64,000 nt of DNA from Sulfurimonas sp. (GTDB lineage: Bacteria > Campylobacterota > Campylobacteria > Campylobacterales > Sulfurimonadaceae): positions 1,725,405-1,789,404 of the forward strand of contig NZ_CP093397.1 in assembly GCF_029027585.1 (NCBI RefSeq). The letters are read 5' to 3'. The position numbers were made by a program, and so were the translations under genes. The notes beneath the pieces are model-generated. The model searched no databases. It saw only the letters and a program-made list of their open reading frames with translations, and had not been told where the DNA came from. Below, in pieces: positions 30,070 through 56,454 of this stretch. Position 1 is the first letter of the stretch, and every line of letters begins with the position of its first letter.

Positions 30070-30089
30070 TATTGTCCCTATGGACAATA
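30070..30089. promoter_or_regulatory. 8-bp inverted repeat in the adhesin leader
   Basis: TATTGTCC-CTAT-GGACAATA, 58 bp before the start of the giant adhesin gene. The core TGTCCCTATGGACA recurs at exactly the same distance before the second adhesin gene (47932-47945). It is either a shared operator or an mRNA hairpin. Confidence 0.55.
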
Positions 30090-30556
30090 GTAATAATTTA
30101 TTTATTCTCCTATTATTACAATATTAAATTATTTTTGGAGAGATATCATGGCAACAGATGTAGCAATAGTAAGCAGTTTAGAAGGTAAATTTTTTGCAAA
30201 AGATCAAGATGGAAATGTAGTAGAGCTGAAGAATGGCGATACAATTTCTAAAGATATGACTGTTTTTGGAGATAAAAATAATCCTGCATCTGCAAATATT
30301 AAATTTGTTATGAATGATGGTGCTAATGAAATTGTTTTAACTGGAACTCAAGAACAAGCTTTTGATAGTTCTTTAAATGATGAACCAAGCCATGAAAGTG
30401 GTTTATCTAAAGAAAGCATAGAAAAAGCACTGATAAAAGAATTGTATGCTCAAGAAGATAAGACAGATACAAAAGAAGAAGATTTAGGTATCTTGGATGA
30501 AACAGCAGCTGGTGAAGAACAAGCAAAACAAAATGAAGGTGGAGAAGGGCAGTTTG
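30073..30556 (+). repeat. Shared leader plus retention-module segment, copy 1
   Basis: 484 bp almost identical to 47932-48415 with no indels (constant offset 17859), spanning about 75 bp of leader and the first about 136 codons of each adhesin. The main differences are in codons 3-7. This points to recent duplication or ongoing gene conversion between the two adhesin genes. Confidence 0.9.
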
Positions 30557-39500: not shown

Positions 39501-42500
39501 TATAGATGGAGTAACTACTACAGTTACAATTACAGATGCAATGATAACTGCAAAGGTTTATACAACAAGTGTAACAACTCCTGCAGAAGGTGTAACTCTA
39601 AATGTAAGTGCAACAATTACTGACCAAGCTGGAAATACTTCAACTTCTTCAAGTGACTCAGCAACAAGAGCAGACCAAACAGCAACTGGAGCTCCAACAG
39701 TAACAATCACTGAAGATACAAACAATGATGGAAGTTTAGTTAACTCAGAAATCTCAGGTGATACAGATATAAGTATTGCTTTACCAGCTGGAGCATTAGC
39801 AGGTGATACTCTAAATGTAACTATAGATGGAGTAACTACTACAGTTACAATTACAGATGCAATGATAACTGCAAAGGTTTATACAACAAGTGTAACAACT
39901 CCTGCAGAAGGTGTAACTCTAAATGTAAGTGCAACAATTACTGACCAAGCTGGAAATACTTCAACTTCTTCAAGTGACTCAGCAACAAGAGCAGACCAAA
40001 CAGCAACTGGAGCTCCAACAGTAACAATCACTGAAGATACAAACAATGATGGAAGTTTAGTTAACTCAGAAATCTCAGGTGATACAGATATAAGTATTGC
40101 TTTACCAGCTGGAGCATTAGCAGGTGATACTCTAAATGTAACTATAGATGGAGTAACTACTACAGTTACAATTACAGATGCAATGATAACTGCAAAGGTT
40201 TATACAACAAGTGTAACAACTCCTGCAGAAGGTGTAACTCTAAATGTAAGTGCAACAATTACTGACCAAGCTGGAAATACTTCAACTTCTTCAAGTGACT
40301 CAGCAACAAGAGCAGACCAAACAGCAACTGGAGCTCCAACAGTAACAATCACTGAAGATACAAACAATGATGGAAGTTTAGTTAACTCAGAAATCTCAGG
40401 TGATACAGATATAAGTATTGCTTTACCAGCTGGAGCATTAGCAGGTGATACTCTAAATGTAACTATAGATGGAGTAACTACTACAGTTACAATTACAGAT
40501 GCAATGATAACTGCAAAGGTTTATACAACAAGTGTAACAACTCCTGCAGAAGGTGTAACTCTAAATGTAAGTGCAACAATTACTGACCAAGCTGGAAATA
40601 CTTCAACTTCTTCAAGTGACTCAGCAACAAGAGCAGACCAAACAGCAACTGGAGCTCCAACAGTAACAATCACTGAAGATACAAACAATGATGGAAGTTT
40701 AGTTAACTCAGAAATCTCAGGTGATACAGATATAAGTATTGCTTTACCAGCTGGAGCATTAGCAGGTGATACTCTAAATGTAACTATAGATGGAGTAACT
40801 ACTACAGTTACAATTACAGATGCAATGATAACTGCAAAGGTTTATACAACAAGTGTAACAACTCCTGCAGAAGGTGTAACTCTAAATGTAAGTGCAACAA
40901 TTACTGACCAAGCTGGAAATACTTCAACTTCTTCAAGTGACTCAGCAACAAGAGCAGACCAAACAGCAACTGGAGCTCCAACAGTAACAATCACTGAAGA
41001 TACAAACAATGATGGAAGTTTAGTTAACTCAGAAATCTCAGGTGATACAGATATAAGTATTGCTTTACCAGCTGGAGCATTAGCAGGTGATACTCTAAAT
41101 GTAACTATAGATGGAGTAACTACTACAGTTACAATTACAGATGCAATGATAACTGCAAAGGTTTATACAACAAGTGTAACAACTCCTGCAGAAGGTGTAA
41201 CTCTAAATGTAAGTGCAACAATTACTGACCAAGCTGGAAATACTTCAACTTCTTCAAGTGACTCAGCAACAAGAGCAGACCAAACAGCAACTGGAGCTCC
41301 AACAGTAACAATCACTGAAGATACAAACAATGATGGAAGTTTAGTTAACTCAGAAATCTCAGGTGATACAGATATAAGTATTGCTTTACCAGCTGGAGCA
41401 TTAGCAGGTGATACTCTAAATGTAACTATAGATGGAGTAACTACTACAGTTACAATTACAGATGCAATGATAACTGCAAAGGTTTATACAACAAGTGTAA
41501 CAACTCCTGCAGAAGGTGTAACTCTAAATGTAAGTGCAACAATTACTGACCAAGCTGGAAATACTTCAACTTCTTCAAGTGACTCAGCAACAAGAGCAGA
41601 CCAAACAGCAACTGGAGCTCCAACAGTAACAATCACTGAAGATACAAACAATGATGGAAGTTTAGTTAACTCAGAAATCTCAGGTGATACAGATATAAGT
41701 ATTGCTTTACCAGCTGGAGCATTAGCAGGTGATACTCTAAATGTAACTATAGATGGAGTAACTACTACAGTTACAATTACAGATGCAATGATAACTGCAA
41801 AGGTTTATACAACAAGTGTAACAACTCCTGCAGAAGGTGTAACTCTAAATGTAAGTGCAACAATTACTGACCAAGCTGGAAATACTTCAACTTCTAGTTC
41901 TGATAGTGTTACAAGAAATTGTTCTCCAGAAGCTCAAGACAGTAATATTACTTTAAACGAAGACACAACATATACATACAAGTTATCTGATTTTAATCAC
42001 AATGATGTAGATGGTGATGCTATTAGTATAATTAGAATAGAATCTTTACCTACTTTAGGTGACCTTTACTATAATGGAATACTTGTTAGTTCTCCTGGCT
42101 TAGAAATAGATGCCTCAAATATAGGGTTACTTACATATAAACCATATGAGAATGATTCAGGTTCTGATGATTATTCTACTCAAGGTGTTGGGGAACAACA
42201 GAGTGATTATGCAAACTTTAATTTTAGTGTAAATGATGGAGATACATGGAGTAATTCAGTATCTGTTATGACAGTTGATGTTACTGCCGTGGCAGATGCT
42301 CCGACACTAGATATTACGAGTGCTACAACTACTAATCAGTTAATAACAATGGGAAATGTAAATACTACAAATAACGGATTTGAGATTAGTGCTAAAAAAG
42401 CAGATGGTTCAGACTCAACTATAAGCATTAACCAACAACAAGATGGATTTGGTGTTAAAGGTTCAGCTTCTGGTGCAGATAGTGAGTTAGGGCATGAAGA

Positions 42501-45500
42501 ATCACTTGTTGTAAAATTTGATACAGATGTATCGTCTATTGATGTTTCTTTTTCATGGAAGCATAGTAGCGAAACAGCTAGGATTACATTTTACAAAGAT
42601 GGTGTAGTAGTTGGTACCGCTACTCATAAAGGTGGTAGTAATGGTGTAGATGCTCCTGTTACATTTAAACCTGATAATGGTGCAAAATTTGATAAGGTTG
42701 TATTTAGTGCTCCTAATTCAGGGGATGATTATCTTATTCACTCTATAAGCTATGACAAAACTGAAACTGTGTCAAGTCCGTTAATTGTAGAGGAAGAAGA
42801 TTCTGTAGCATTTAGTATAGCTTCTGTTCTTACTGATGTAGATGGTTCAGAGTCTCTGAAAGTTGAGTTAACAGATATTCCTATTGGATTTACTATATCA
42901 GATGATACAAATTCGTTTACAGCAACTGCTTCAACAACCAGTGTAGATATTACAAACTGGGATAAAAGTACTCTTACCTTGATGACTACAAATGTATCTG
43001 ATACAACTACTTACACATTAAAGGTAGTCTCAACTAGCACAGAGTCTTCAAACGGAGATGTGGCTACTACAACTAAAGTTATTCAAGTAACAGTTACTGA
43101 TACTAAACCAACAGCAGTAGCTGATAATGACAGTGTTGGTTTTGGTGGTGAAGCACATGGTAATGTTATAACAGGTGATGGTGGTTTAAATGCTGATATA
43201 CTTGGAGAAGATTCAGTAGAACTTTCATCAATAACTTATGGAGGAACTACTTATTTATTTAATGGTAATAATACTATTACTATTAATGGAGCATATGGAG
43301 AGCTTATTATTAACAAAGATGGTAGTTATAGTTACGAATCAACGCAGAGCAACCCTATAGATGGCGTTTCAGAAGGATTTTCTTATACTATTATTGATTC
43401 AGATGGTGACAGTAGTAGTGCAATATTGACTATTAATCACGACAAAGACTTGACTCCAGTAAATGACACAGCAATTGTTAATGAGTCAGGATTATCTGAT
43501 GGAACAAATGCAGGCGCACCAACAGAGATAGTCACAGGAAATTTACTTGATAACGATAATGGAGTAGGTGCAAACTCTTCAATAACAGAAATATCTAGTA
43601 GTGTTGATAGTGATAATAGTACTCAAGGGAATGGCATTTTAACAATAGATACTGAGCATGGTTCTATTACAGTTTATACGAAAGATTCAAATAGTCATAG
43701 AGCTGGTGATTACGAGTATGAGTTAACAGATGCATCAAGTGGTGATAATATTGTAGATAGTATAACTTATAGAACTGATGATGGAGATGGTACACAATCA
43801 ACAGCAACTTTAAATGTAAGTATTGTAGATGATGCACCGATAGGAACAAATATAAATGAAGCATTGCATGATACATCAGGGGATTCTTTAACAACTAACC
43901 TTATTATAGTTTTAGATAGATCAGGAAGCATGGGTTGGGATATTGATGGTAATAAATCAGATAATTCTGATTTTGATGCAGACCAAGTTCGTATGGATAT
44001 TGCAAAAGATGCACTAAAAAGTATGTTTGGTTCTTATGATAACTTAGGTAATGTAAATATCAAATTTGTTGATTTTTCAAGTGATGTTAATGAATCTGCT
44101 TGGTACAACGATGATGTTAATTCTGCAAATACTTACCTTGATGGTATAGATGCAGGTGGTGGAACTAGATATGATTCGGCTTTAAATGGTGTCATCGATG
44201 GGCATACTCAACCAGTTGCAGATAAAACCTTAGTTTACTTTATCTCAGATGGTGAGCCAAATAGTGGTCATGCAGTAGATGATACAGTTGTTTACGGTGG
44301 TTTAACTGGTAAGGCTGCTTGGGAAAATTTTTTAGATGACAATGGTGTAGATATATCTTATGGTATAGGGATTACAAATGGTGTTAGCCTAAGTAGTTTA
44401 GAGCCTGTTGCATATTCTAGTACAGATGGTAACACTGAACCTTATGCTATCAAAGTCTTAAATGCATTTGATTTAAAACAAACTCTACTTGATAGTGTTT
44501 CTGAAGGAGTTGTTCAAGGAGATGCATCTGCTCTTATTGGAAATGGGTCAGATGGTATAGTTCTTGGTGCTGATGGTGGTTCGATTACAAGTGTTGTTTA
44601 CAATGGAGTTACATATAGTAGTACAAGTGGAGATACAGTAAGCATTACAACTACGCATGGTGGTATTTTAGATATTAACTTTTCAACAGGGAAGTATATT
44701 TATACTATAAACTCTAACGAAAGTATAAGCGGCGAAAAAGATACATTCTCAGTTACAGCGACAGATGGAGATGGAGATACCAAAACAGTTGATTTAGTAA
44801 TTACGCTTGATTATGTGGCAGAGTTAGACGCTAATCGTGATTATGTAGTTACAAATACAACTGATGACTTAGTTATAGATGCAAGCCTATTAACACATAA
44901 TGACTCTGGAACAAACAGTATTGATTCAGTTGATGGAACTAATGTTACTTTTGCAAATAATGAAGTAACTCTAAGTAACAATGCAAATGCTTTTGAATAT
45001 ACAGTTTCAAATCCAGGTAGTAGTGACACAGCAAAAGTAGAAGTAAGTTACGAAACTGGAACTACTCTAAGTGGGACTGATAAAGCAGAAACTCTTATCG
45101 GTAGTGCAAATGATGACAGGATAGTTCTTGGTGGCAATGATATTGCAGTTGATGGTGCGGCTGGTCTTGATACACTCATTTTAGAAAATGGTGTTGATTT
45201 AGATTTCTCAGATACTAACATCGCAAGTATTATTAATGTAGAAAAAATTGATATGACTGATAATGGAGCGCACACTATAAGTAACTTATCATTAGATGAT
45301 ATTTTGGATATGACAGAACCTGGAAACAGTTTAGAAATTATAGGTGATAGTGACGATAAAATAGAAGACTTAGATACTGCTGGTTGGACTGAAACAGGAG
45401 ATACAACGGATAATGTATTTGAGTATAGTCGCGCAAATGCTGATGGTTCATCAGATAGCATAACATTAACAATAGATGAGCAAATAGATACAACAGGTAT

Positions 45501-45504
45501 GTAA
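30148..45504 (+). CDS. Giant LapA-type repeat adhesin (5118 residues)
   Basis: A predicted cell-surface adhesin secreted by a type I system. Residues 1 to about 136 form a LapA-like retention module (AIVSSLEGKFFAKDQDGNVV start) that plugs the outer-membrane pore, followed at 119-122 by Thr-Ala-Ala-Gly, the site type cut by the LapG protease to release such adhesins. Residues 182-3916 are 35 tandem copies of a 107-residue Ig-like unit, each with an acidic DTNNDGSL calcium-site-like loop. Then come cadherin/VCBS-like domains, a von Willebrand A domain near residue 4590 (MIDAS motif DRSGS), a short RTX-like stretch (GTDKAETLIGSANDD, about 4975) and a C-terminal secretion signal. GGAG at 30137-30140 supports the start. 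No signal peptide, as expected. Confidence 0.93.
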   Translation: MATDVAIVSSLEGKFFAKDQDGNVVELKNGDTISKDMTVFGDKNNPASANIKFVMNDGANEIVLTGTQEQAFDSSLNDEPSHESGLSKESIEKALIKELYAQEDKTDTKEEDLGILDETAAGEEQAKQNEGGEGQFVDRDAIQTDVTTKLRSNKFELDEKPQEVERKLIVEQEEDGKVVDTTATGAPTVTITEDTNNDGSLVNSEISGDTDISIALPAGALAGDTLNVTIDGVTTTVTITDAMITAKVYTTSVTTPAEGVTLNVSATITDQAGNTSTSSSDSATRADQTATGAPTVTITEDTNNDGSLVNSEISGDTDISIALPAGALAGDTLNVTIDGVTTTVTITDAMITAKVYTTSVTTPAEGVTLNVSATITDQAGNTSTSSSDSATRADQTATGAPTVTITEDTNNDGSLVNSEISGDTDISIALPAGALAGDTLNVTIDGVTTTVTITDAMITAKVYTTSVTTPAEGVTLNVSATITDQAGNTSTSSSDSATRADQTATGAPTVTITEDTNNDGSLVNSEISGDTDISIALPAGALAGDTLNVTIDGVTTTVTITDAMITAKVYTTSVTTPAEGVTLNVSATITDQAGNTSTSSSDSATRADQTATGAPTVTITEDTNNDGSLVNSEISGDTDISIALPAGALAGDTLNVTIDGVTTTVTITDAMITAKVYTTSVTTPAEGVTLNVSATITDQAGNTSTSSSDSATRADQTATGAPTVTITEDTNNDGSLVNSEISGDTDISIALPAGALAGDTLNVTIDGVTTTVTITDAMITAKVYTTSVTTPAEGVTLNVSATITDQAGNTSTSSSDSATRADQTATGAPTVTITEDTNNDGSLVNSEISGDTDISIALPAGALAGDTLNVTIDGVTTTVTITDAMITAKVYTTSVTTPAEGVTLNVSATITDQAGNTSTSSSDSATRADQTATGAPTVTITEDTNNDGSLVNSEISGDTDISIALPAGALAGDTLNVTIDGVTTTVTITDAMITAKVYTTSVTTPAEGVTLNVSATITDQAGNTSTSSSDSATRADQTATGAPTVTITEDTNNDGSLVNSEISGDTDISIALPAGALAGDTLNVTIDGVTTTVTITDAMITAKVYTTSVTTPAEGVTLNVSATITDQAGNTSTSSSDSATRADQTATGAPTVTITEDTNNDGSLVNSEISGDTDISIALPAGALAGDTLNVTIDGVTTTVTITDAMITAKVYTTSVTTPAEGVTLNVSATITDQAGNTSTSSSDSATRADQTATGAPTVTITEDTNNDGSLVNSEISGDTDISIALPAGALAGDTLNVTIDGVTTTVTITDAMITAKVYTTSVTTPAEGVTLNVSATITDQAGNTSTSSSDSATRADQTATGAPTVTITEDTNNDGSLVNSEISGDTDISIALPAGALAGDTLNVTIDGVTTTVTITDAMITAKVYTTSVTTPAEGVTLNVSATITDQAGNTSTSSSDSATRADQTATGAPTVTITEDTNNDGSLVNSEISGDTDISIALPAGALAGDTLNVTIDGVTTTVTITDAMITAKVYTTSVTTPAEGVTLNVSATITDQAGNTSTSSSDSATRADQTATGAPTVTITEDTNNDGSLVNSEISGDTDISIALPAGALAGDTLNVTIDGVTTTVTITDAMITAKVYTTSVTTPAEGVTLNVSATITDQAGNTSTSSSDSATRADQTATGAPTVTITEDTNNDGSLVNSEISGDTDISIALPAGALAGDTLNVTIDGVTTTVTITDAMITAKVYTTSVTTPAEGVTLNVSATITDQAGNTSTSSSDSATRADQTATGAPTVTITEDTNNDGSLVNSEISGDTDISIALPAGALAGDTLNVTIDGVTTTVTITDAMITAKVYTTSVTTPAEGVTLNVSATITDQAGNTSTSSSDSATRADQTATGAPTVTITEDTNNDGSLVNSEISGDTDISIALPAGALAGDTLNVTIDGVTTTVTITDAMITAKVYTTSVTTPAEGVTLNVSATITDQAGNTSTSSSDSATRADQTATGAPTVTITEDTNNDGSLVNSEISGDTDISIALPAGALAGDTLNVTIDGVTTTVTITDAMITAKVYTTSVTTPAEGVTLNVSATITDQAGNTSTSSSDSATRADQTATGAPTVTITEDTNNDGSLVNSEISGDTDISIALPAGALAGDTLNVTIDGVTTTVTITDAMITAKVYTTSVTTPAEGVTLNVSATITDQAGNTSTSSSDSATRADQTATGAPTVTITEDTNNDGSLVNSEISGDTDISIALPAGALAGDTLNVTIDGVTTTVTITDAMITAKVYTTSVTTPAEGVTLNVSATITDQAGNTSTSSSDSATRADQTATGAPTVTITEDTNNDGSLVNSEISGDTDISIALPAGALAGDTLNVTIDGVTTTVTITDAMITAKVYTTSVTTPAEGVTLNVSATITDQAGNTSTSSSDSATRADQTATGAPTVTITEDTNNDGSLVNSEISGDTDISIALPAGALAGDTLNVTIDGVTTTVTITDAMITAKVYTTSVTTPAEGVTLNVSATITDQAGNTSTSSSDSATRADQTATGAPTVTITEDTNNDGSLVNSEISGDTDISIALPAGALAGDTLNVTIDGVTTTVTITDAMITAKVYTTSVTTPAEGVTLNVSATITDQAGNTSTSSSDSATRADQTATGAPTVTITEDTNNDGSLVNSEISGDTDISIALPAGALAGDTLNVTIDGVTTTVTITDAMITAKVYTTSVTTPAEGVTLNVSATITDQAGNTSTSSSDSATRADQTATGAPTVTITEDTNNDGSLVNSEISGDTDISIALPAGALAGDTLNVTIDGVTTTVTITDAMITAKVYTTSVTTPAEGVTLNVSATITDQAGNTSTSSSDSATRADQTATGAPTVTITEDTNNDGSLVNSEISGDTDISIALPAGALAGDTLNVTIDGVTTTVTITDAMITAKVYTTSVTTPAEGVTLNVSATITDQAGNTSTSSSDSATRADQTATGAPTVTITEDTNNDGSLVNSEISGDTDISIALPAGALAGDTLNVTIDGVTTTVTITDAMITAKVYTTSVTTPAEGVTLNVSATITDQAGNTSTSSSDSATRADQTATGAPTVTITEDTNNDGSLVNSEISGDTDISIALPAGALAGDTLNVTIDGVTTTVTITDAMITAKVYTTSVTTPAEGVTLNVSATITDQAGNTSTSSSDSATRADQTATGAPTVTITEDTNNDGSLVNSEISGDTDISIALPAGALAGDTLNVTIDGVTTTVTITDAMITAKVYTTSVTTPAEGVTLNVSATITDQAGNTSTSSSDSATRADQTATGAPTVTITEDTNNDGSLVNSEISGDTDISIALPAGALAGDTLNVTIDGVTTTVTITDAMITAKVYTTSVTTPAEGVTLNVSATITDQAGNTSTSSSDSATRADQTATGAPTVTITEDTNNDGSLVNSEISGDTDISIALPAGALAGDTLNVTIDGVTTTVTITDAMITAKVYTTSVTTPAEGVTLNVSATITDQAGNTSTSSSDSATRADQTATGAPTVTITEDTNNDGSLVNSEISGDTDISIALPAGALAGDTLNVTIDGVTTTVTITDAMITAKVYTTSVTTPAEGVTLNVSATITDQAGNTSTSSSDSATRADQTATGAPTVTITEDTNNDGSLVNSEISGDTDISIALPAGALAGDTLNVTIDGVTTTVTITDAMITAKVYTTSVTTPAEGVTLNVSATITDQAGNTSTSSSDSATRADQTATGAPTVTITEDTNNDGSLVNSEISGDTDISIALPAGALAGDTLNVTIDGVTTTVTITDAMITAKVYTTSVTTPAEGVTLNVSATITDQAGNTSTSSSDSATRADQTATGAPTVTITEDTNNDGSLVNSEISGDTDISIALPAGALAGDTLNVTIDGVTTTVTITDAMITAKVYTTSVTTPAEGVTLNVSATITDQAGNTSTSSSDSVTRNCSPEAQDSNITLNEDTTYTYKLSDFNHNDVDGDAISIIRIESLPTLGDLYYNGILVSSPGLEIDASNIGLLTYKPYENDSGSDDYSTQGVGEQQSDYANFNFSVNDGDTWSNSVSVMTVDVTAVADAPTLDITSATTTNQLITMGNVNTTNNGFEISAKKADGSDSTISINQQQDGFGVKGSASGADSELGHEESLVVKFDTDVSSIDVSFSWKHSSETARITFYKDGVVVGTATHKGGSNGVDAPVTFKPDNGAKFDKVVFSAPNSGDDYLIHSISYDKTETVSSPLIVEEEDSVAFSIASVLTDVDGSESLKVELTDIPIGFTISDDTNSFTATASTTSVDITNWDKSTLTLMTTNVSDTTTYTLKVVSTSTESSNGDVATTTKVIQVTVTDTKPTAVADNDSVGFGGEAHGNVITGDGGLNADILGEDSVELSSITYGGTTYLFNGNNTITINGAYGELIINKDGSYSYESTQSNPIDGVSEGFSYTIIDSDGDSSSAILTINHDKDLTPVNDTAIVNESGLSDGTNAGAPTEIVTGNLLDNDNGVGANSSITEISSSVDSDNSTQGNGILTIDTEHGSITVYTKDSNSHRAGDYEYELTDASSGDNIVDSITYRTDDGDGTQSTATLNVSIVDDAPIGTNINEALHDTSGDSLTTNLIIVLDRSGSMGWDIDGNKSDNSDFDADQVRMDIAKDALKSMFGSYDNLGNVNIKFVDFSSDVNESAWYNDDVNSANTYLDGIDAGGGTRYDSALNGVIDGHTQPVADKTLVYFISDGEPNSGHAVDDTVVYGGLTGKAAWENFLDDNGVDISYGIGITNGVSLSSLEPVAYSSTDGNTEPYAIKVLNAFDLKQTLLDSVSEGVVQGDASALIGNGSDGIVLGADGGSITSVVYNGVTYSSTSGDTVSITTTHGGILDINFSTGKYIYTINSNESISGEKDTFSVTATDGDGDTKTVDLVITLDYVAELDANRDYVVTNTTDDLVIDASLLTHNDSGTNSIDSVDGTNVTFANNEVTLSNNANAFEYTVSNPGSSDTAKVEVSYETGTTLSGTDKAETLIGSANDDRIVLGGNDIAVDGAAGLDTLILENGVDLDFSDTNIASIINVEKIDMTDNGAHTISNLSLDDILDMTEPGNSLEIIGDSDDKIEDLDTAGWTETGDTTDNVFEYSRANADGSSDSITLTIDEQIDTTGM
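30691..41895 (+). repeat. 35-copy, 321-bp tandem repeat inside the adhesin gene
   Basis: The unit starts ACAGCAACTGGAGCTCC at 30691 and recurs every 321 bp; the marker GGAGCTCC at 30700 and its last occurrence at 41614 are exactly 34 periods apart. The last copy diverges after 41895. On reading, the copies appear identical in DNA, including silent positions, so they were amplified recently or are kept uniform by recombination. Copy number in any assembly of such an array should be treated with caution. Confidence 0.95.
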
Positions 45505-45567: not shown

Positions 45568-46242
45568 ATGAGTGCAAAAATTGTTGTTGTTGAAGATGAA
45601 GAAGATTTACTAGAGTTACTAGAATACAATTTTGATAAAGAGGGTTTTGAAGTTATCGGTTTTTTAAATACAAAAACTGTTTCTCAAATCCTTGAAGAAG
45701 AAGAGATTGACTTACTCATTATGGATAGAAATTTACCTGGTGTTGAGGGTAGTGAGTTTGTTGCATCTTTGCGTGAAAATGGAATATTGACTCCAGTTAT
45801 TTATCTTAGTGCAAAAAATAGAGATTCTGATATAGAAGAGGGTTTTTTAAGTGGTGGAGATGACTACTTAACAAAACCTTTTAATATGAAAGAGTTGATT
45901 ATGAGAGTTAAAGCACTGCTTCGTAGAACTACTAAAAAATACAATGAAGGTAAAATCTCTCATAGAGATTTACTTCTAAACAAAAGCACAAGAGAGTTAA
46001 GTGTAGATGGACAAAATGTTGAAATTACAAAACTTGAGTTTGACCTTTTATATGAGTTTATTTTAAATAAAAATAGCGTTCTTGACCGTGATTATCTACT
46101 TGAAAATGTATGGGGAGATGGGGAACTTTATCAGTATAAAACTGTAAATGTAGCCATAAATAGACTCAAAGAAAAAATAGACCCGCTAAAAACAAAAGAG
46201 TATATACAAACTGTTAGAGGAGTTGGATACCGCCTGTGCTAA
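45568..46242 (+). CDS. OmpR/PhoB-family response regulator
   Basis: A 224-residue protein with a receiver domain (Glu9/Asp10/Glu11 acidic cluster VVEDEED, phosphorylated Asp53 in LLIMDRNLPG, Ser81, Lys103 in YLTKPF) and a C-terminal winged-helix DNA-binding domain (ITKLEFDLLYEFILNKNSVL, then NVAINRLKEKI and VRGVGYRL). It acts as a transcription factor activated by the kinase encoded next (7-bp overlap). Its place between two adhesin genes suggests these as targets, which is inference. The giant adhesin ends 63 bp upstream. Confidence 0.94.
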   Translation: MSAKIVVVEDEEDLLELLEYNFDKEGFEVIGFLNTKTVSQILEEEEIDLLIMDRNLPGVEGSEFVASLRENGILTPVIYLSAKNRDSDIEEGFLSGGDDYLTKPFNMKELIMRVKALLRRTTKKYNEGKISHRDLLLNKSTRELSVDGQNVEITKLEFDLLYEFILNKNSVLDRDYLLENVWGDGELYQYKTVNVAINRLKEKIDPLKTKEYIQTVRGVGYRLC

Positions 46243-47630
46243 AAATTCATCAATTATTTATCTTAAAGTTTCTTCTTCTTTTTGTTGGAACACTTTTTAT
46301 AACTTCACTCATAAGTTATGTAGCATTAAAATCTATCATCATCGGGCATAACAAAACACATCTTCAAAATGCCATAACTTTGATGGGTATGGAACTACAA
46401 GATATAAATAACCTAGATAAATACTCAGCTTTGGTCAATAAAAAAACACAACTTAGAGTAACTATGATAAACCAAGAAGGTAAGGTAATTGCCGAATCAA
46501 ACCTAGATAAAAAAGATATGGACAATCATGCTTCAAGATATGAAATCATGCAAGCAAATACAGATGACTTTTCACATGTCATAAGATACTCTAAAACTTT
46601 AAAAGTTGATTTTTTGTATGTAGCAAAAAAGTTTGATTATAAAGAAAAAAAGATTTATATTAGACTTTCTATGAGTTTAGCTCAGGTTATGAAAGATTTT
46701 TATTCACTTTCATCAAAGTTGGCAGTTGTCTTTTTTATCGTGAGTTTGATGGCTTTTTATATCTCAAAAAGGATGAGTGAAAAAATAGTTTATGATATAA
46801 AGCAAATCACAAACTTTTTAGATGAGATAAGTAACAAAAATTATAAAGCAATCATAAAAACAAAATACTTTTATGAATTTTTACAAATATCTTTAATGCT
46901 TAAAAATCTTGTGAAAAAATTAAGTTCTAGAGAAAAACAAAAAAGAAAATATACAGCAAAACTTAGACTGATGAATAAACAAAGAAATGATATACTTTCT
47001 GCCATTTCTCATGAGTTTAAAAATCCTGTCGCTTCCATCATGGGTTATGCTCAAACTTTGCAAGATGACCCAGAAATTTCTCCAAAAATTCGCCAAAAAT
47101 TTTTAGATAAAATCAACTCAAATGGAGAAAAAATCTCAAAAATGTTAGATAGACTTGCTTTGTCAGTAAAACTTGAAAACAAAGATTTAGACATAAGTTT
47201 AAGTGAGTTTGATATGAAAGTTTTATGCGAAGAGGTTGTTTTAAATTTAGGTTCAAAATATAAAGACAGAGAGATAAATCTAAAAGCAGAAAAAACAATA
47301 ATTCAAGCAGATAAAACTATGATAGAGTTAGCTCTTATAAACATTGTTGATAATGCGTTAAAATATTCGGAGTTAGAAGTAAATGTTTTGTTACAAGATG
47401 AACAAATATCAGTACAAGATAAAGGCATCGGCATACAAGAAGAGCATCTAGACAAGATTACAGGTAAATTTTACAGAGTTAAGAAAAATTCTTGGGATAA
47501 CTCTATGGGCATCGGCTTGGCAATGGTTAGCTATATTTTAAATATGCATAATTCAAAACTAGAGATACAATCTATCTTTTCAAAAGGCTCTATTTTTAGC
47601 TTTTCTTTAAAAGAGATGCTAAAAAAATAG
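46236..47630 (+). CDS. Membrane sensor histidine kinase
   Basis: A 464-residue kinase starting with GTG that overlaps the response-regulator stop. It has transmembrane helices at about 9-33 and 161-178 enclosing a periplasmic sensor of about 125 residues, a linker with HAMP-like position and coiled coil, a HisKA domain with phospho-acceptor His259 (AISHEFKNPVASIMGYAQTL) and an HATPase domain (N box NIVDNALKYSE, G1 DKGIGI, G2 GIGLAMVSYIL). The periplasmic signal is unknown. It pairs with the upstream regulator as a two-component system located between the two LapA-like adhesins. Confidence 0.94.
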   Translation: MLKIHQLFILKFLLLFVGTLFITSLISYVALKSIIIGHNKTHLQNAITLMGMELQDINNLDKYSALVNKKTQLRVTMINQEGKVIAESNLDKKDMDNHASRYEIMQANTDDFSHVIRYSKTLKVDFLYVAKKFDYKEKKIYIRLSMSLAQVMKDFYSLSSKLAVVFFIVSLMAFYISKRMSEKIVYDIKQITNFLDEISNKNYKAIIKTKYFYEFLQISLMLKNLVKKLSSREKQKRKYTAKLRLMNKQRNDILSAISHEFKNPVASIMGYAQTLQDDPEISPKIRQKFLDKINSNGEKISKMLDRLALSVKLENKDLDISLSEFDMKVLCEEVVLNLGSKYKDREINLKAEKTIIQADKTMIELALINIVDNALKYSELEVNVLLQDEQISVQDKGIGIQEEHLDKITGKFYRVKKNSWDNSMGIGLAMVSYILNMHNSKLEIQSIFSKGSIFSFSLKEMLKK

Positions 47631-47701: not shown

Positions 47702-47920
47702 ATGCGAAACTTTGAAGCAATCATAGTAAAATTAAAACATCATATTTTAGAACAAAAAAGTAAAAAAGTTTTAGATAAAGAAGTTGCAGATGCTCTAAAA
47801 CTATCTCAGTCAAATTTTGCGACTCTAAAAAGAAGAAATGTTACCCCATATAGAAATATCCTAGAGTTTTGTGAAAAAGAAAACATCTCTTGTAATGAGA
47901 TATTTTTTCAAGGTAGTTAA
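47702..47920 (+). CDS. Small CI-repressor-like HTH protein
   Basis: A 72-residue protein with the helix-turn-helix domain of the phage CI N-terminal family (KVLDKEVADALKLSQSNFAT, then LKRRNVTPYRNILEFCEKEN), preceded by TAGGAA. It has no effector or oligomerisation domain, so it would act as a compact DNA-binding protein. It begins 71 bp after the kinase stop and ends 11 bp before the conserved inverted-repeat leader of the second adhesin, so a role in adhesin control is plausible. Not verified. Confidence 0.75.
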   Translation: MRNFEAIIVKLKHHILEQKSKKVLDKEVADALKLSQSNFATLKRRNVTPYRNILEFCEKENISCNEIFFQGS

Positions 47921-47931
47921 ATTATGGCTAC

Positions 47932-48415
47932 TGTCCCTATGGACAATAGTAATAATTTATTTATTCTCCTACTATTACAATATTAAATTATTTTTGGAGA
48001 AATATCATGGCAACCAAAATCGCGACTGTAAGCAGTTTAGAAGGTAAATTTTTTGCAAAAGATAAAGATGGAAATGTAGTAGAGCTAAAAAATGGCGATA
48101 CAATTTCTAAAGATATGACTGTTTTTGGAGATAAAAATAATCCTGCATCTGCAAATATTAAATTTGTTATGAATGATGGTGCTAATGAAATTGTTTTAAC
48201 TGGAACTCAAGAACAAGCTTTTGATAGTTCTTTAAATGATGAACCAAGCCATGAAAGTGGTTTATCTAAAGAAAGCATAGAAAAAGCACTGATAAAAGAA
48301 TTGTATGCTCAAGAAGATAAGACAGATACAAAAGAAGAAGATTTAGGTATCTTGGATGAAACAGCAGCTGGTGAAGAACAAGCAAAACAAAATGAAGGTG
48401 GAGAAGGTCAGTTTG
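47932..48415 (+). repeat. Shared leader plus retention-module segment, copy 2
   Basis: Near-identical to 30073-30556. It begins with the inverted repeat TGTCC-CTAT-GGACA (47932-47945), continues through an identical AT-rich leader and GGAGA ribosome site, and ends inside the adhesin coding region just after the TAAG site. Confidence 0.9.
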
Positions 48416-51400
48416 AAGCAAGAGATGCTGGACAAACTGACATCGTTGCTGGACTTCGTGATGCTAGTTTTGGTGGAACTGATGATGGTGAAAAACCAGA
48501 TGGTGAGCAAAAAATACCATTAAATGCTGAGTTGAGCATAGATGGGATGACATTAGTTCATGAGGGAGATTCTGCTACTTATACATTGAGTGTTACAGAT
48601 GCGCCTGTGTCAGATATGCTTGTAAGTGTAAGAGTTTCACACATAGATACTGATAATGGTGATATTGTTGAAGAAACTATTATTGTTACAATACCTGCTA
48701 ATTCTAAAATAGGAACATTTACAATAGATAATTTTGATAATAATTTTGAAGAAGCAGATGAAGATTATAGTGTTACAATTATTTCTACCGAGGGTGGTGG
48801 ATATGATGTTCTTACTATTGGTAAAGATAGTGTAACTACAACAATCATAGATGAAACTTCAACTGGAAATCCTGATCCAGAAGATACTACAACAGTAGCC
48901 ATTACAACAGCAGATGTAAATGAAGATGATAATTTTACAACATTTAATATTGAACTTTCAAACCCACCAAAGACAGGTGTACCTACAACAGTCCAAGTTC
49001 AAATAGGAAATACAACTCACAATGTAGTAGTAGACGCTGATGGTAAAGGTAGCTTACAAATAAGCACTAAAGATAGTGATGTTTACAAAGAATCAGATGT
49101 TGATATGACAGCAACAGTTACAGGTGTTACTGGTGGAGATTACGAAAAAGTTGTAGTTGGTCAAAGTGCTACTTCTACATTAGAAGATACAGTTGATACT
49201 ACAACAGTTTCTCTCATCGCAACACAATCAACAAGCGAAGATGCTGGAATCATAATTTATACAGTTTCAATCGATAATAAAGCCAATAATAATGTAGATG
49301 TTACACTAAGCGTTGGTGCGAATGGTGAAGTAGCTTCTGCAAATAATCCAGCATTAGTTATCACAATTCCTGCTGGTCAACTAACAGCTAGTACTAATGC
49401 CACAGTAAGTAGAGATAACGATGATGGAAGTGGCGAAGATAAGTATCAAGAAACAGACTCTGTATCTGCAAAAATTGTATCTGCAGTAGAAGATAATGCA
49501 GGAAGTGTTACAAGCTTAGAAGAATTAGCTATTGATGGTACTCCAGCGGTTACAACTATTGTAGATGATGCTGATGCTATAAGTGTATCTATTACAACAA
49601 GTAATATTACAGAAGATGACAACAGTATTACATATAATGTTCAGTTGTCAGCTGCCCCAGACCCAACTACTTATGACAATGCTAATAAACCAACTGTTCA
49701 AGTCGAAATAAATGGAACTACTTACAATGTAGAGGTAGATGCTAATGGGAGTGGAGTATTGAATTTTGCCGTTACCCCAGATTCAGATGTTTTAAAAGAA
49801 GCAGATACTACGGTTAGTGCGAAAGTGACAGGTGTAACAGGTGGAAACTTTGAAGCAGAAACAGTCGGTCAGACTGCAACGGCAACTATTAAAGATTCTA
49901 TAGATACAGTATATGCAAGAATTTCTCATAGTGATACATCGGCAGAGGGGGATAGCTTAACTCATACAGTAGAATTATATACAATTGTAAATGGTCAAGA
50001 AGTTGCAGTAGAAGTTCCAGCTAATGAGAGTGTGACAATTTCTTTAAACTATGCAAATAATAATCAAGATGCCCTAGAAAACACGGACTTATCGACTAAA
50101 CAACCAACAGTAACTATTAGTGGTGGAAATAGTAGTGCAGTTATTACAAATGTTTCTTTACACGATAATATCGATGAGCTTGATGAGAGTTATACAATAA
50201 CTTTAGGTGCAGTTACTCAAAGCCCTTTTGAAAAAGTTGTAACACAGGGTGAAGCTGATGGAACAATTATTGACTATGATAGATTAGTAGTTGAAGATGA
50301 TAGTAATGACGCTGATGGAGATGGGATATTCAATGTAGCACTTTTTGATGCCACAGACGCTATCTTCATAAGTGATGAAAATAATGGTTCAGTTTATGAA
50401 AGTATTACAATTTCAGGAATTCCTTCAGATGCAATTCTAAAAGACCACAATGGAAATCAAGTAGCAGTTGTTAATGGTACAGTTATTCTTACAAATACTC
50501 TTGGGGAGATAAGAGCTTTTACAATAACTCCTGCAACTGACAGTAGTGAAAATATATATTTAAGTTATACCGTGACTTCAAATGATGGAGCTACTCAGAC
50601 TTTTACAGATACTTTTGATCAAACAGTTAGAATCATACCAGATGCTGATCAGCCGATTACTCAAGGTGATAAATCTTATGGTGCTTTAGAGGGTGATTGG
50701 ATTTCACTTAGTGGGCTTAGCGCAGCGATAGGTGAAACAAATACAAGTAATAATCATGATAATGAAAATTTAGTTACTAAAATTGATGTACAAAACAACA
50801 TAAAAGTTCAATATAGATGGACTGATGACAATGGAGTTATTCATACTTCTAATAATACAAAAGGTGCTGTCGAAATTCCTCAAAAATATTTAGATACAGT
50901 AGAAGTTCAAACTAAAAATGATGATTGGAATGGAACTTTAACATTTAAAATGACAACAGTAGCTACAGATAATGATGAATTAAATAATGGTGAAACAAAT
51001 ATTGATACAGCTACAGAATTAGATACTTTAACTGTAACAGTTTCAGGTAGTGCAGATGCCCCTATTATCAATGTATCTGGTGGAGCAGGACTTGAAGATG
51101 CAGGTAGAAATCCAGATACTGGAGTGATTTCAGCAAATGGTGTTGGCGGAATTGCTATCGAACTTGGAGCTTTTACTGATGGTGGAACAGAGAGCATCGA
51201 GTTTATAATCTCAGATATTCCTGATGATGCATTTATTTATGACGCAAATGGCACTCTTTTAAATCCTATGGTTAATGGGAATTATGTTGGTACTATTACG
51301 GTAGCTTTAGCAGATGCTTCAGGACTTACAGTAGTTCCTCCGCATGATAGCAATGTTGATTTTGATTTAACAGTTGTTGGAAAATCTACTGAAGGTAATT

Positions 51401-54400
51401 GGGATACTAATATTGGTGGACTTCAAACAAACCTAAGTGCTCCTAAAACTTTAACAATTGCTCTTACTGGTGTTATCGATGCACTAGATGTAGAAGTAAA
51501 TAATATAGGTGGAGCTGAAGATAGTTGGGTAAGTTTTGGACTTAAGGCATCTTCTGGTGAGGATGTTGCTAGTGACACTTCTGAAAGTATTTATGCAACA
51601 CTTAAAGGTGTCCCAAAAGGTAGTGAGATTAGAATTGTAGATGCAAATGGTGTTGAGTTACCTTTAACTGATAACTTGACTTTAGCAGGTGTTTATGCTG
51701 ATGGTTCAACTGATTGGAGAATTGATAACGATGTATTGGCTGCATTAAATAATGGTACTAAAGATTTCCAAATTAAACTAAAAGCTGATTTTAGTGGTGA
51801 AATAAAAATAGGCTTAGATGTAACTGCTACTGAAAATGATGGAGATACTACAAGTGTACAAAAAGACTTTATTTTAAATATTGCACCTGTAGTAGATACG
51901 GCTGATGGTTCAAATACACAAGAAGTCACTGAAGACACTTGGACTCACTTAGATTTACCTATGGGAACAAATGATAGTAATAGCGAGAGTGTTGTTGAAG
52001 GAACAGCAGTACTTTCAGGGATACCAACAGGATTTTCTATAAAAGTTGATGGAGTGCTTCAAGACACAAGTAGTGGATCATTATCATTAACAAATGCAGA
52101 GGCTTCATTGGTAACAATTTTAGCTCCAGAGAATTCAAATGTTGATGTAAGTGGTCTTAAGTTTACAAGAGATATTTTAGATGAATCTGTTAAAGATTCT
52201 CAACATGATGGAGATGATGAAGTAGCTAGTTCATCAGTAGTTCAATCTATCTCTTTAGATTTAGTAGGAGTTGCTGATGGTTGGACTGATGATGGATTTG
52301 AAGTTCAAGATGTAACTTCTGCAGGAAATACAACACTATTAACAAATGTGATTCAAACAAATAATAATATAGATACTGATGGTTCAGAGACTAAATATTA
52401 CATAGTTGAAAATCAAACAGGAGTTACTGACAATCCAAATTGGAGTATTGAGAATGGTGTTAATCTTGGTGGAGGCAGATGGTTAGTTACAGAAGCTAAT
52501 TTAAACAATGCTAATATCAAAGTATATAATCACGGTGGTTCTAACGATGATGGTACCGCACAGTTACAAATCTCTCCTGCTGTAAGAGAAAATGATGGTG
52601 ATGTAAATATTGGTGCTCCAGAAACATTTACACTTAATTATCAAATTGGCAATGCTGGTAATGGTGGAGGCTCTGATATTCCAGTTATAAATGCTAATGA
52701 TGGTATCGGTGTAGGTACTGAAGATACAGATATAACTAGTTCAGATTTTGATGCAACAACAGTTAATCCTGCACATGCTCTTTCTTATATTGTAACTGAT
52801 GTTGCAAATGGAAAGTTGAGCGATAATCCAGACTTTTACTCAATCGGTGGTGGACAATATATAACAACAAACAAAGCTGCATTAGATGATATAACTCCAG
52901 ATGCAAATTATAATGGAGATGTTATTGTAAGCGTAGAAGTTATAGCAGTAAACACCGCAACAGGTGAAGAAGCTAGTGAAAATCATACTATTACTATTGA
53001 TGTAGCTCCTGTTTTAGATGCGTCTAGTGTTAAGGCTGTTTTAATTGATAATAACGAAACGGATGCAGGTGGAGTTGTAATCCTTAATCTGTCTATTGGT
53101 TCATCCGATACAGATGGAAGCGAGAGTTTCTCTGGTAATATCATAATAACTGCTAAAGATGGAGGATTGTTTAGTAATGGGACTGATACAATTACTGTAA
53201 CTACTCAAGCAGAGCTATCAAATTTAGCATATACTCCACCTGCATATAAGCAGGGTACTTTTGATTTTGACATATCTTATACATGGAACGATGCTGATAC
53301 AAATGATAATGGTGTTGTAGAAAATGCAACTAGAAACCAATCATTTAGTATAACTTTAGATTCTCATGTAGATACGGTAAGTGTAGCTATTAACCCTACA
53401 AGTACAACAGAAGCAGAGGGTACAGATATTCCTTTAGGTCTTAGCTTTACTCAGACAGATAGTGATGGAAGTGAAGCTGCTTCTGTTGTTATCAGTGGTT
53501 TACCAGATGGTGTAAAACTAAATGTTGGTACTATGAAAATAGTTGATGATGGAAATGGACAGTCTCATCATGAATTTATCTTAAAAGCTTCAGAAGTTGC
53601 TAACGCTAAAATAGTAGCTGATGAGCATTTCTCAGGAGATTTTACATTAACTGCAAAAGCATATAGTTATGATATAAAATCAGGTGAAACAAGTGAGTCA
53701 ACATTAGAAAGTAAAGCATTTTCAATTACTCCTGTTGCAAGTGGCTTAAGTGTAAATGCTAATGGACATGGTGGTGATGAAGATACAGCGATATCTATAA
53801 AACTTGATTTAGTTCTTGAAGATACAGATGTTTACTCTGCTGCTGAGACAGTTAATGTAACATTTAGTGATTTTGTAGCTGGTTCTACATTTACAATCGA
53901 TGGCACAACTGTAATTGGTGGACTCGTTGGTAGTGACTATGTTATAAATGCTTTAACACCAGCACAAGCAGAGTCTTTATCTATAATACCTCCAAAAGAT
54001 TATAACGGGAATATGAATGATGTAAGAGTGAGTGTTCAAACAGTTGATGGAACAAGCATACTTGCAACAGGAGTAAGCGATACATTTAATATAGTTGTAG
54101 ATGCTGTTACAGATGCTGCTACGATAAGTGTAGATGCCACTTTTTCAGATAGGATAGCTGATACAAATACATTTGCTTTAAACATTACAGCAGATGCACC
54201 AGATAATCAGTCTTTAAGTATTGTTTTAAATAATGTTAATGGTACTTTAAGTACAGGAGTAGATAATGGAAATGGTCAATGGACACTTACCCAAGCTCAG
54301 TTAAACGGACTAACAATCACTCCAAATAGTGATGTGAGTGCTGATTTTGATATAAGCGTTAAAGCAGTTACAGATGGTGGAGTTCAAACACAAGCTACAC

Positions 54401-54816
54401 AGGCGATAACAGTAAATGCGCAAGAAGATGAAGTATTTACTCTAGCAAACAGTGACATAGATGGCTTAGCTGGGCATGATACTTTAACAATTAGTGGTAA
54501 TGAAGATATTGACTTTAGTAATTTAAACAATACTGTGACAAATATTGAAACTATAAATTTAGAATCAGGAAGTCACGATATAACAATATCTTTAGATGAT
54601 GTTTTAGATATTACAGGAGGAAGTAACCATTTAGATATTACAGCTATTGCTGATGATGGTGATAGTGTAGTTATTAACGATGCTAATGATAATTGGAACG
54701 ATGCAACAATTACGGACAATAATAACGGTACTCATTCTTTTGAATATACTAGTACAGTTGGCAATAGTAGTATCACTTTAACAGTTGATGATCAAATAGA
54801 TACAAATGGTATGTAG
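48007..54816 (+). CDS. Second LapA-type adhesin (2269 residues)
   Basis: A predicted type I secreted surface protein. Its first about 136 residues are nearly the same as those of the giant adhesin, including Thr119-Ala-Ala-Gly122 for LapG-type cleavage. The middle (about 170-900) has divergent Calx-beta/Ig-like repeats, visible as recurring TTVSL...SEDA, ...ITEDDN and TVTGVTGGDYEKV/NFEAETV elements followed by a D-T linker. The remainder has cadherin/VCBS-like domains with EDTW/EDT motifs. The C terminus (ITLTVDDQIDTNGM) closely matches that of the giant adhesin (ITLTIDEQIDTTGM), the presumed export signal. No tandem identical repeats. It is followed after 12 bp by convergent dnaX. Confidence 0.9.
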   Translation: MATKIATVSSLEGKFFAKDKDGNVVELKNGDTISKDMTVFGDKNNPASANIKFVMNDGANEIVLTGTQEQAFDSSLNDEPSHESGLSKESIEKALIKELYAQEDKTDTKEEDLGILDETAAGEEQAKQNEGGEGQFEARDAGQTDIVAGLRDASFGGTDDGEKPDGEQKIPLNAELSIDGMTLVHEGDSATYTLSVTDAPVSDMLVSVRVSHIDTDNGDIVEETIIVTIPANSKIGTFTIDNFDNNFEEADEDYSVTIISTEGGGYDVLTIGKDSVTTTIIDETSTGNPDPEDTTTVAITTADVNEDDNFTTFNIELSNPPKTGVPTTVQVQIGNTTHNVVVDADGKGSLQISTKDSDVYKESDVDMTATVTGVTGGDYEKVVVGQSATSTLEDTVDTTTVSLIATQSTSEDAGIIIYTVSIDNKANNNVDVTLSVGANGEVASANNPALVITIPAGQLTASTNATVSRDNDDGSGEDKYQETDSVSAKIVSAVEDNAGSVTSLEELAIDGTPAVTTIVDDADAISVSITTSNITEDDNSITYNVQLSAAPDPTTYDNANKPTVQVEINGTTYNVEVDANGSGVLNFAVTPDSDVLKEADTTVSAKVTGVTGGNFEAETVGQTATATIKDSIDTVYARISHSDTSAEGDSLTHTVELYTIVNGQEVAVEVPANESVTISLNYANNNQDALENTDLSTKQPTVTISGGNSSAVITNVSLHDNIDELDESYTITLGAVTQSPFEKVVTQGEADGTIIDYDRLVVEDDSNDADGDGIFNVALFDATDAIFISDENNGSVYESITISGIPSDAILKDHNGNQVAVVNGTVILTNTLGEIRAFTITPATDSSENIYLSYTVTSNDGATQTFTDTFDQTVRIIPDADQPITQGDKSYGALEGDWISLSGLSAAIGETNTSNNHDNENLVTKIDVQNNIKVQYRWTDDNGVIHTSNNTKGAVEIPQKYLDTVEVQTKNDDWNGTLTFKMTTVATDNDELNNGETNIDTATELDTLTVTVSGSADAPIINVSGGAGLEDAGRNPDTGVISANGVGGIAIELGAFTDGGTESIEFIISDIPDDAFIYDANGTLLNPMVNGNYVGTITVALADASGLTVVPPHDSNVDFDLTVVGKSTEGNWDTNIGGLQTNLSAPKTLTIALTGVIDALDVEVNNIGGAEDSWVSFGLKASSGEDVASDTSESIYATLKGVPKGSEIRIVDANGVELPLTDNLTLAGVYADGSTDWRIDNDVLAALNNGTKDFQIKLKADFSGEIKIGLDVTATENDGDTTSVQKDFILNIAPVVDTADGSNTQEVTEDTWTHLDLPMGTNDSNSESVVEGTAVLSGIPTGFSIKVDGVLQDTSSGSLSLTNAEASLVTILAPENSNVDVSGLKFTRDILDESVKDSQHDGDDEVASSSVVQSISLDLVGVADGWTDDGFEVQDVTSAGNTTLLTNVIQTNNNIDTDGSETKYYIVENQTGVTDNPNWSIENGVNLGGGRWLVTEANLNNANIKVYNHGGSNDDGTAQLQISPAVRENDGDVNIGAPETFTLNYQIGNAGNGGGSDIPVINANDGIGVGTEDTDITSSDFDATTVNPAHALSYIVTDVANGKLSDNPDFYSIGGGQYITTNKAALDDITPDANYNGDVIVSVEVIAVNTATGEEASENHTITIDVAPVLDASSVKAVLIDNNETDAGGVVILNLSIGSSDTDGSESFSGNIIITAKDGGLFSNGTDTITVTTQAELSNLAYTPPAYKQGTFDFDISYTWNDADTNDNGVVENATRNQSFSITLDSHVDTVSVAINPTSTTEAEGTDIPLGLSFTQTDSDGSEAASVVISGLPDGVKLNVGTMKIVDDGNGQSHHEFILKASEVANAKIVADEHFSGDFTLTAKAYSYDIKSGETSESTLESKAFSITPVASGLSVNANGHGGDEDTAISIKLDLVLEDTDVYSAAETVNVTFSDFVAGSTFTIDGTTVIGGLVGSDYVINALTPAQAESLSIIPPKDYNGNMNDVRVSVQTVDGTSILATGVSDTFNIVVDAVTDAATISVDATFSDRIADTNTFALNITADAPDNQSLSIVLNNVNGTLSTGVDNGNGQWTLTQAQLNGLTITPNSDVSADFDISVKAVTDGGVQTQATQAITVNAQEDEVFTLANSDIDGLAGHDTLTISGNEDIDFSNLNNTVTNIETINLESGSHDITISLDDVLDITGGSNHLDITAIADDGDSVVINDANDNWNDATITDNNNGTHSFEYTSTVGNSSITLTVDDQIDTNGM

Positions 54817-54828
54817 TGTCTAGACTAC

Positions 54829-56454
54829 CTAAATCTTAGACTGAATGGTGATTTTAGTAGCTTCAAACATCTCAATAGCTTTTTGAACCATAGGTTCATC
54901 TTTGATATCGTTTGAATCTACTTCTTTGCTAGATTCATCAGTAGATGAACAGTTCGTTACACAACTTCCACTTCCCCCAATCTCGGCTTCTTCTATCATG
55001 GAAGAGGTTTGAGGTTCAGGTTCACTAACAGTTTCTTTAGTGCATTTATTACCTTTGATTTTTGTATCAAAACCATAAACTTCTTTTACTAGATGCTGTA
55101 TAGCACCCCAACCATGTTTTAGTGCTTTTTTCCCCTCTTCATCAGGGCAACTTTCCCAAGTGAGTAATTCATTTTCATAAGATATAAATGTGATAGCTTT
55201 CTCAAAACAGATACCTAAGTCATTATTTCTATCTTTTATATTTGCGATTAGTTCATCAAATTTTTGATTTGCTTGAGGTGTGATTACTTCTGCTTGTATT
55301 TCTTTTTCAACTTTTGGTATTTCTGTAATTATTTTGGCTGTTTCTTGTGGTTTGACAATCTCTTGAGGTCTTTGAATCTCTTTTTGTAAAGACTCTATCA
55401 TTTGGTCCACTTCTTTTATACGAAGAGCTTCAATCATCTTAAAAAATATCATAGAAAGTACAAAAGAACCGTCAGCATTTATGGAAAATAGATATTTTGA
55501 ATCGCTTAAAATTCTGAAAAATCTATCTAAAACAAGAGTAGAAAAAAGTGCATCTTGGTTATACATACGCTCTTTTAGATAAGCAATTAGTTCATCTACA
55601 ACCATCTCAGCTTCATAGTCTTCAAGTACTTTTGTATAAGTTACAAGTTGCCCGTAGTCTTTTGCAAAGACAGCGCTAAATAAATCAGCGATAAATTTAG
55701 GGTCAACAAGACCTAACATATCCGTAACTGTATTAACATCAACATGATTTTTTGAGTAGATGATGGCTTGGTCTAAAAGTGTTAGAGTATCTCTAAGACT
55801 TCCACTTCCACTTCTTGCTAAAATCTCTAAAGCATCTGTTTCATAACCAATCTCTTCAAGGTTTAGTATGTGAGCTAAATGGTCTATAACCTTATTTGTT
55901 GCGATGCGTTTAAATCTAAAGTGTTGAGTACGACTAAGTATGGTTGCTGGGAGTTTTAAAGGGTCTGTTGTTGCTAAGATGAACTTTACATATTCTGGGG
56001 GTTCTTCAAGCGTTTTTAAAAGAGCATTAAAAGCAGGAGTACTTAACATATGAACTTCATCGATAATGATTACTTTAAATCTTGCACTATTTGGTTTGTA
56101 TTTTGTTTGTTCAACAAGACTTTTTATATCATCTATTCCACGATTTGAAGCCGCATCCATTTCTATGATATCAATGTGACGGTTTTGTAGTGCAGAGATG
56201 CAGTTTGAACATTTCCCGCATGGTTGATGACTTATACCTTCTTCACAAATAAGAGCCTTAGCAAAGATACGAGCAGTTGATGTTTTTCCACTTCCTCTTA
56301 GACCTGAAAAAAGGTAAGCGTGAGAGAGTCTGTTTGAATCAAGTGCTAAAGATAAGGTCTGCGATATTGTTTCTTGACCGATTAGTTCATCAAAGGTAGA
56401 TGGACGATATTTTCTTGCTAATACTTCTGAAGATGCTTTCACTAATAACTCCAA
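54829..56454 (-). CDS. dnaX: DNA polymerase III subunit gamma/tau
   Basis: Clamp-loader ATPase that loads the sliding clamp and links polymerases at the fork. The 541-residue protein has the typical start LARKYRPSTFDELIGQE (12-28), Walker A GLRGSGKTS (51-59), the zinc site cysteines (Cys70, 79, 82, 85), Walker B IIDEVHMLS and the sensor ILATTDPLKLPATILSR. The C-terminal part after about residue 360 is variable and charged, as expected for the tau region. Whether a shorter gamma form is produced is not evident. It is read toward the second adhesin gene, 12 bp away. Confidence 0.96.
   Translation of the reverse strand: MELLVKASSEVLARKYRPSTFDELIGQETISQTLSLALDSNRLSHAYLFSGLRGSGKTSTARIFAKALICEEGISHQPCGKCSNCISALQNRHIDIIEMDAASNRGIDDIKSLVEQTKYKPNSARFKVIIIDEVHMLSTPAFNALLKTLEEPPEYVKFILATTDPLKLPATILSRTQHFRFKRIATNKVIDHLAHILNLEEIGYETDALEILARSGSGSLRDTLTLLDQAIIYSKNHVDVNTVTDMLGLVDPKFIADLFSAVFAKDYGQLVTYTKVLEDYEAEMVVDELIAYLKERMYNQDALFSTLVLDRFFRILSDSKYLFSINADGSFVLSMIFFKMIEALRIKEVDQMIESLQKEIQRPQEIVKPQETAKIITEIPKVEKEIQAEVITPQANQKFDELIANIKDRNNDLGICFEKAITFISYENELLTWESCPDEEGKKALKHGWGAIQHLVKEVYGFDTKIKGNKCTKETVSEPEPQTSSMIEEAEIGGSGSCVTNCSSTDESSKEVDSNDIKDEPMVQKAIEMFEATKITIQSKI

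Follow-up and report, generated by a model that had tools for sequence, protein, structure and literature searches.

In Pseudomonas fluorescens (LapA and MapA) and Vibrio cholerae (FrhA and CraA), two adhesins share one LapG/LapD pair, and the LapG substrates known from Pseudomonas, Vibrio and Desulfovibrio carry a helix followed by a D..TAAG-type motif (PMC6890996, PMC13090378). We analyzed a window of 64,000 nucleotides from the 2.6 Mb genome of a Sulfurimonas sp. (NZ_CP093397.1, positions 1,725,405 to 1,789,404), which contains two adhesin genes, A and B (Table 1). Like LapA/MapA and FrhA/CraA, these proteins combine an N-terminal retention domain, a helix and a [T/A/P]AAG site with different repeat bodies, and LapG (peptidase C93) and LapD (GGDEF-EAL) are encoded in the genome. 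Unlike in both described pairs, lapG and lapD are located away from the adhesin genes, and DE takes the place of the DP motif that precedes the site. Whereas FrhA and CraA are described as differing in primary sequence, the promoter and retention module of A and B are a near-identical, recent copy.

The alignment of the two genes has no indels between about −75 and codon 136 (starts at 30148 and 48007), giving a shared block of 484 bp that comprises the operator, −10 element, RBS and codons 1–136. Between −74 and +408, only 14 of 483 positions differ (97% identity). Twelve of these 14 differences are concentrated at −6 to +83, while the 317 bp from +84 to +400 contain none, a run whose length was never reached when the differences were placed at random 200,000 times. 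Beyond the block, to the left of the operator and to the right of codon 136, identity between A and B drops abruptly to 16–45%. The original prediction, that two different adhesins carry a near-identical leader and 5′ coding block, is thus borne out, and alignment of the two blocks showed that silent differences are not scattered over them. The A repeat array (30681–41900) consists of 35 tandem 321-bp units, most at 99% identity; copy number in such arrays can change, and compression or expansion in assemblies may occur. Directly before adhesin A, at 28974–30017, lies a gene for an ATP:guanido phosphotransferase with N- and C-terminal domains, here in a Campylobacterota genome.

Table 1. Features of the adhesin A and B loci, in positions of the 64,000-nucleotide window.
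Feature	Position	Strand	Basis
Operator of A, ATTGTCC-CTAT-GGACAAT, perfect 7-4-7 palindrome	30071..30088	.	
−10 element of A, TATTAT, 22 nt past operator	30111..30116	+	22-nt spacing recurrent in many leaders
Adhesin A, 5118 aa, 35 near-identical 321-bp repeats, vWA domain near C-terminus	30148..45504	+	
Head (retention module) of A, codons 1–136	30148..30555	+	Fold via near-identical B head (AF2/5ix9)
317-bp core identical to B	30232..30548	+	A/B alignment, random-placement test
Predicted LapG site TAAG in A, codons 119–122	30502..30513	+	D117, T119–G122 invariant in alignment; motif as in PMC13090378
OmpR/PhoB-type response regulator	45568..46242	+	
Sensor histidine kinase	46236..47630	+	
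72-aa helix-turn-helix (HTH) protein, adjoins dnaX in 28/28 readable relatives	47702..47920	+	
Operator of B, ACTGTCC-CTAT-GGACAAT, one mismatch, left edge of shared block	47930..47947	.	
−10 element of B, TACTAT (A: TATTAT)	47970..47975	+	
Adhesin B, 2269 aa, LapA-domain repeats; body C-like past codon 136	48007..54816	+	
Head (retention module) of B, codons 1–136	48007..48414	+	Profile match, AF2 model, 5ix9 match
317-bp core identical to A	48091..48407	+	A/B alignment, random-placement test
Predicted LapG site TAAG in B, codons 119–122	48361..48372	+	Alignment
dnaX, right flank of B insertion	54829..56454	−	

In the closest relative, G103, adhesin A is syntenic (guanido kinase, A, histidine kinase, HTH, dnaX) and B is absent. 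Because the HTH gene and dnaX adjoin each other without B in this relative and in 27 more, B is best read, from gene order, as a lineage-specific insertion between these two genes. Both ends of the insertion carry TAAAT. The 72-aa HTH protein, which matches a phage CI repressor HTH weakly, keeps its place between the histidine kinase and dnaX in many genomes of the genus. Of the response-regulator gene beside A, G103 has only a short in-frame remnant (L042, 3425–3640), but the kinase partner is retained. With the B head alone as query, the contigs of other genomes gave no match, and 7 loci were found when an alignment was used; a plasmid search returned a single weak match, in Arcobacter cloacae.

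The relative also indicates when and in which gene the heads changed. Over codons 29–133 (105 codons), dS is 0 between A and B and 0.27 between A and its syntenic counterpart in G103, and the flanking genes differ from those of G103 at a dS of 0.31–0.83. An identical core at synonymous sites that have diverged from the relative points to recent copying, not selection on the protein. Among the 12 clustered differences, B shares the state of G103-A at 10, which argues that the odd codons 3–7 are a later change in A. The cluster that had been described at these codons is therefore real, but its derived state lies in A rather than in B, and since B retains the ancestral codons, its head is of A type in origin. 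The derived cluster in A spans −6 to +83 (30142–30231) and differs from both B and the relative; a search of the window and the genome for a template of codons 3–7 gave only imperfect near matches, none of them in another head.

Two further copies of the head are present in the same genome, as the idea of a fixed head with exchangeable bodies would lead one to expect: adhesin C (74% DNA identity) and a distant adhesin D. All four heads front open adhesin genes, and no silent partial copies were found in the genome. At the nucleotide level, the B head shares 97% identity with A and 72% with C, but codons 137–274 of B are 48% identical to A and 70% to C, so that the head groups with A and the following segment with C. 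The gene for B is chimeric, an A-type head joined to a C-like body near the conserved F-x-x-R-D motif that closes the retention module. The earlier statement that the downstream coding regions are unrelated is thus correct when the bodies of A and B are compared with each other, but not when B is compared with C, and residual similarity persists among the C-termini of A, B and C. In G159, a genome of the same genus, contig L121 encodes an adhesin body resembling that of B (up to 73% over 260 aa), whose own head lies off the contig and which is followed head to tail by a further retention-module gene.

Structure prediction indicates that the A/B block carries a LapA-type periplasmic retention module. 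The NCBIfam LapA retention model (NF033682) matched 9 of 9 heads tested (best E = 2e-7), although the B head, at 31 bits, scores below the curated cut-off of 50. A sequence search of solved structures with the head gave no credible match, and the fold was assessed by prediction instead. The AlphaFold (AF2) model of B residues 1–75 has a pLDDT of about 90, and it superimposes on 5ix9, the cell-surface anchoring domain of the Marinomonas primoryensis ice-binding adhesin, with Z = 11.8 and an rmsd of 2.2 over 75 of 76 residues; the next chain reaches only Z = 4.8. The predicted fold is the same at only 23% sequence identity, and the promoter lies outside that comparison. A helix is predicted at residues 88–100 of the B head, with low confidence around it. 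Downstream, D117 and the TAAG of codons 119–122 are invariant in the alignment of heads, as are several core residues.

The genome encodes two LapG proteins (PF06035) and one LapD (PF16448-GGDEF-EAL), all above cut-off, and we infer that LapG would cleave the A and B heads at the predicted TAAG. No exporter genes lie beside A or B. An ABC transporter and an HlyD protein are encoded at the C locus (around 637 kb), together with OmpA, a 195-aa LuxR-type regulator (PF00196, GerE domain) and adhesin C, and A and B would presumably be exported through this type I exporter. At locus D (336 kb) the head is diverged, and similar exporter genes and a related regulator are assigned there by sequence resemblance only.

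The left edge of the shared block is a putative operator, an 18-bp palindrome. Exact TTGTCCN4GGACAA sites occur three times in this genome, and one of them is the operator of A; all three exact sites of G103 lie at its three adhesins. Of 56 distinct leaders in the family, 52 have the palindrome with at most one mismatch, vs. 0.18% in shuffled sequences, at −73 to −88 with one exception at −129. The distance to the −10 element is near-fixed, mostly 20–22 nt: in a simple TATAAT search the element lies exactly 22 nt past the palindrome in about half of the leaders, and aligning the leaders reveals this spacing in more of them. One-mismatch matches across the genome are at chance level (control 17 vs. 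8), and the census was therefore restricted to exact sites. Across 14 near-complete genomes, 25 such sites fell into 12 adhesin leaders, 12 intragenic positions and 1 other intergenic position, meaning that 12 of the 13 intergenic sites are adhesin leaders. For one genome (G000) the backward control of exact sites also gave 5; the argument accordingly rests on the position of the sites before adhesins, not on their number. One exact operator-like site (L053, 1501–1516) lies within a long, repeat-like coding region, Rhs-like by eye, and was taken as chance.

The half-sites differ between head classes, with ATTGTCC accompanying the class of A, B and C and ATTGTAC the class of D. In a second family, a 7-4-7 palindrome occupies the same place in 14 of 16 leaders, with half-sites ATCACCC or AGTACCC and a −10 element 20–22 nt downstream. 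As judged from these leaders, the putative operator marks nearly all such adhesins examined, and its half-sites vary between classes and families. Palindromes also precede retention-module adhesins at L044, L045, L049, L050 and others, in several families of the order.

LuxR-type activators bind palindromes that end at about −35, and in promoters of LuxR/FixJ-type activators the box overlaps the −35 element. The palindrome described here is centered about −43 from the inferred start site, and the GerE-domain regulator beside the C exporter has related proteins at the D locus and in relatives. Its half-sites are not known to be those of such boxes, and binding is putative. The regulator beside the C exporter would be a candidate for binding the palindrome, and it probably ties A and B to a Lap-type regulon. 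The poorer operator and −10 element of B may lower its expression.

Head sharing recurs outside this genus. G235, a one-contig genome from another family of the order, has two adhesin genes at a distance of 110 kb. They have in common a 580-bp block, 94% identical (98.9% over the head), that spans the operator and ends just past the retention module at RDG; their bodies are unrelated (about 51–55%). An older-looking version is found in G443, with 87% identity in the head and 48% in the body. By these comparisons, such head sharing is seen in two separate lineages. Elsewhere, heads are mostly 40–60% identical, and within other genomes of the same family that have at least two heads, the pairs are mostly 47–80% identical. 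Since head pairs in most other multi-head genomes differ by 20–50%, copying is occasional, not continuous. We set aside the identical heads of G086 as likely assembly redundancy, because they remain identical through 1.8 kb of upstream sequence at a contig end, and left out a tandem pair in G376, in which the sequence past the head is 99% identical and which begins at a contig end.

We consider it probable (about 0.78) that B was gained between the HTH gene and dnaX, that its operator, −10 element, RBS and retention module are a recent recombination copy of an A-type head, and that the block serves as a plug into a Lap-type system. The head would have been acquired by homologous recombination, either by gene conversion or by capture of a head at the birth of the gene, with a left copy junction at the operator and a right one where F-x-x-R-D closes the retention module. 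The operator would link the gene to the Lap-type regulon, the retention module would hold the adhesin in the outer-membrane channel after type I export, and the TAAG would allow release by LapG under the control of LapD. Copied onto a new body, the block would give a new adhesin immediate regulation, display and release. One point against a head copy as the sole event is the cluster at −6 to +83, which needs a second, local event in A. The expectation of gene conversion had been part of the original prediction, and a recent conversion or head transfer agrees with the chimeric structure of B and with the second case in another family; the same observations, along with the other head copies, favor its picture of swappable bodies on a fixed head.

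The identity of the two heads could also have other causes. Repeated gene conversion might hold A and B alike over long times, in the manner of concerted evolution; the confinement of copying to the functional block, its recurrence in G235 and its milder form in G443 would fit, but B is found only in this lineage, where one transfer suffices, the pairs of most other genomes are 47–80% identical and the heads of C and D in this same genome are not homogenized, so we regard this as unlikely. Far less credible is that strong purifying selection alone, with no recombination, kept a fixed retention module and its promoter alike in both genes; selection to maintain a single cassette had been offered as a cause of the pattern. 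The head is constrained, as the invariant D117, TAAG and core residues attest, but zero synonymous differences in 105 codons, against a dS of 0.27 to G103-A, refute selection for the core, and heads elsewhere have not been held to comparable identity.

A programmed switch, in which the direct copies recombine, delete the 17.9 kb between them as envisaged in the original prediction and thereby join the leader and head of A to the body of B, so as to turn an adhesin on or off or to exchange it, would have enough homology in 317 identical bp in direct orientation and in frame. However, the assembly contains only the undeleted form, the promoters of A and B are both complete, the region between the two genes contains no recombinase gene, and the G235 pair is separated by 110 kb. 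Nor is G103 a deletion product, as it keeps A, the response-regulator remnant, the kinase and the HTH gene; we judge such a switch improbable. That the head was duplicated by an assembly error is the least plausible account: the G086 pair, similar in appearance, is best read as contig redundancy with identity that includes upstream sequence, but here the genome is one contig, the 14 differences are structured, the flanks are unique and, where the copies differ, B has the state of the relative's A.

The preferred reading, a recent copy of an A-type head onto a C-like body, can be tentatively extended to the whole order, at somewhat less than even odds. Operator-promoter and retention module might form an exchangeable cassette that has been copied repeatedly onto new giant adhesin bodies. 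The operator would keep its position while its half-site changes from one paralogous system to another (ATTGTCC, ATTGTAC, ATCACCC), and a separate LuxR-type regulator for each would keep parallel Lap systems apart. If this were so, an existing Lap-type system would at once take over the regulation, export, anchoring and release of a new body. Copying the promoter-plus-anchor end would be a concrete route to a new giant adhesin that requires no new regulation, export or release. The operator census provides a simple sequence signature for LapG-type adhesins in Campylobacterota, and it makes the separation of paralogous Lap systems a directly testable question. In the open-access literature we found no paper naming both Arcobacter and LapG, and a literature search on gene conversion in type I adhesins returned nothing. 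Polymorphic toxin and contact-dependent inhibition systems recombine a conserved N-terminal region with variable bodies. The adhesins described here resemble them, as a lead only: the delivery head is shared, the rest of the protein can be exchanged, and recombination falls at a conserved junction. Unlike in those systems, the promoter is exchanged along with the head, and the bodies are those of surface adhesins.
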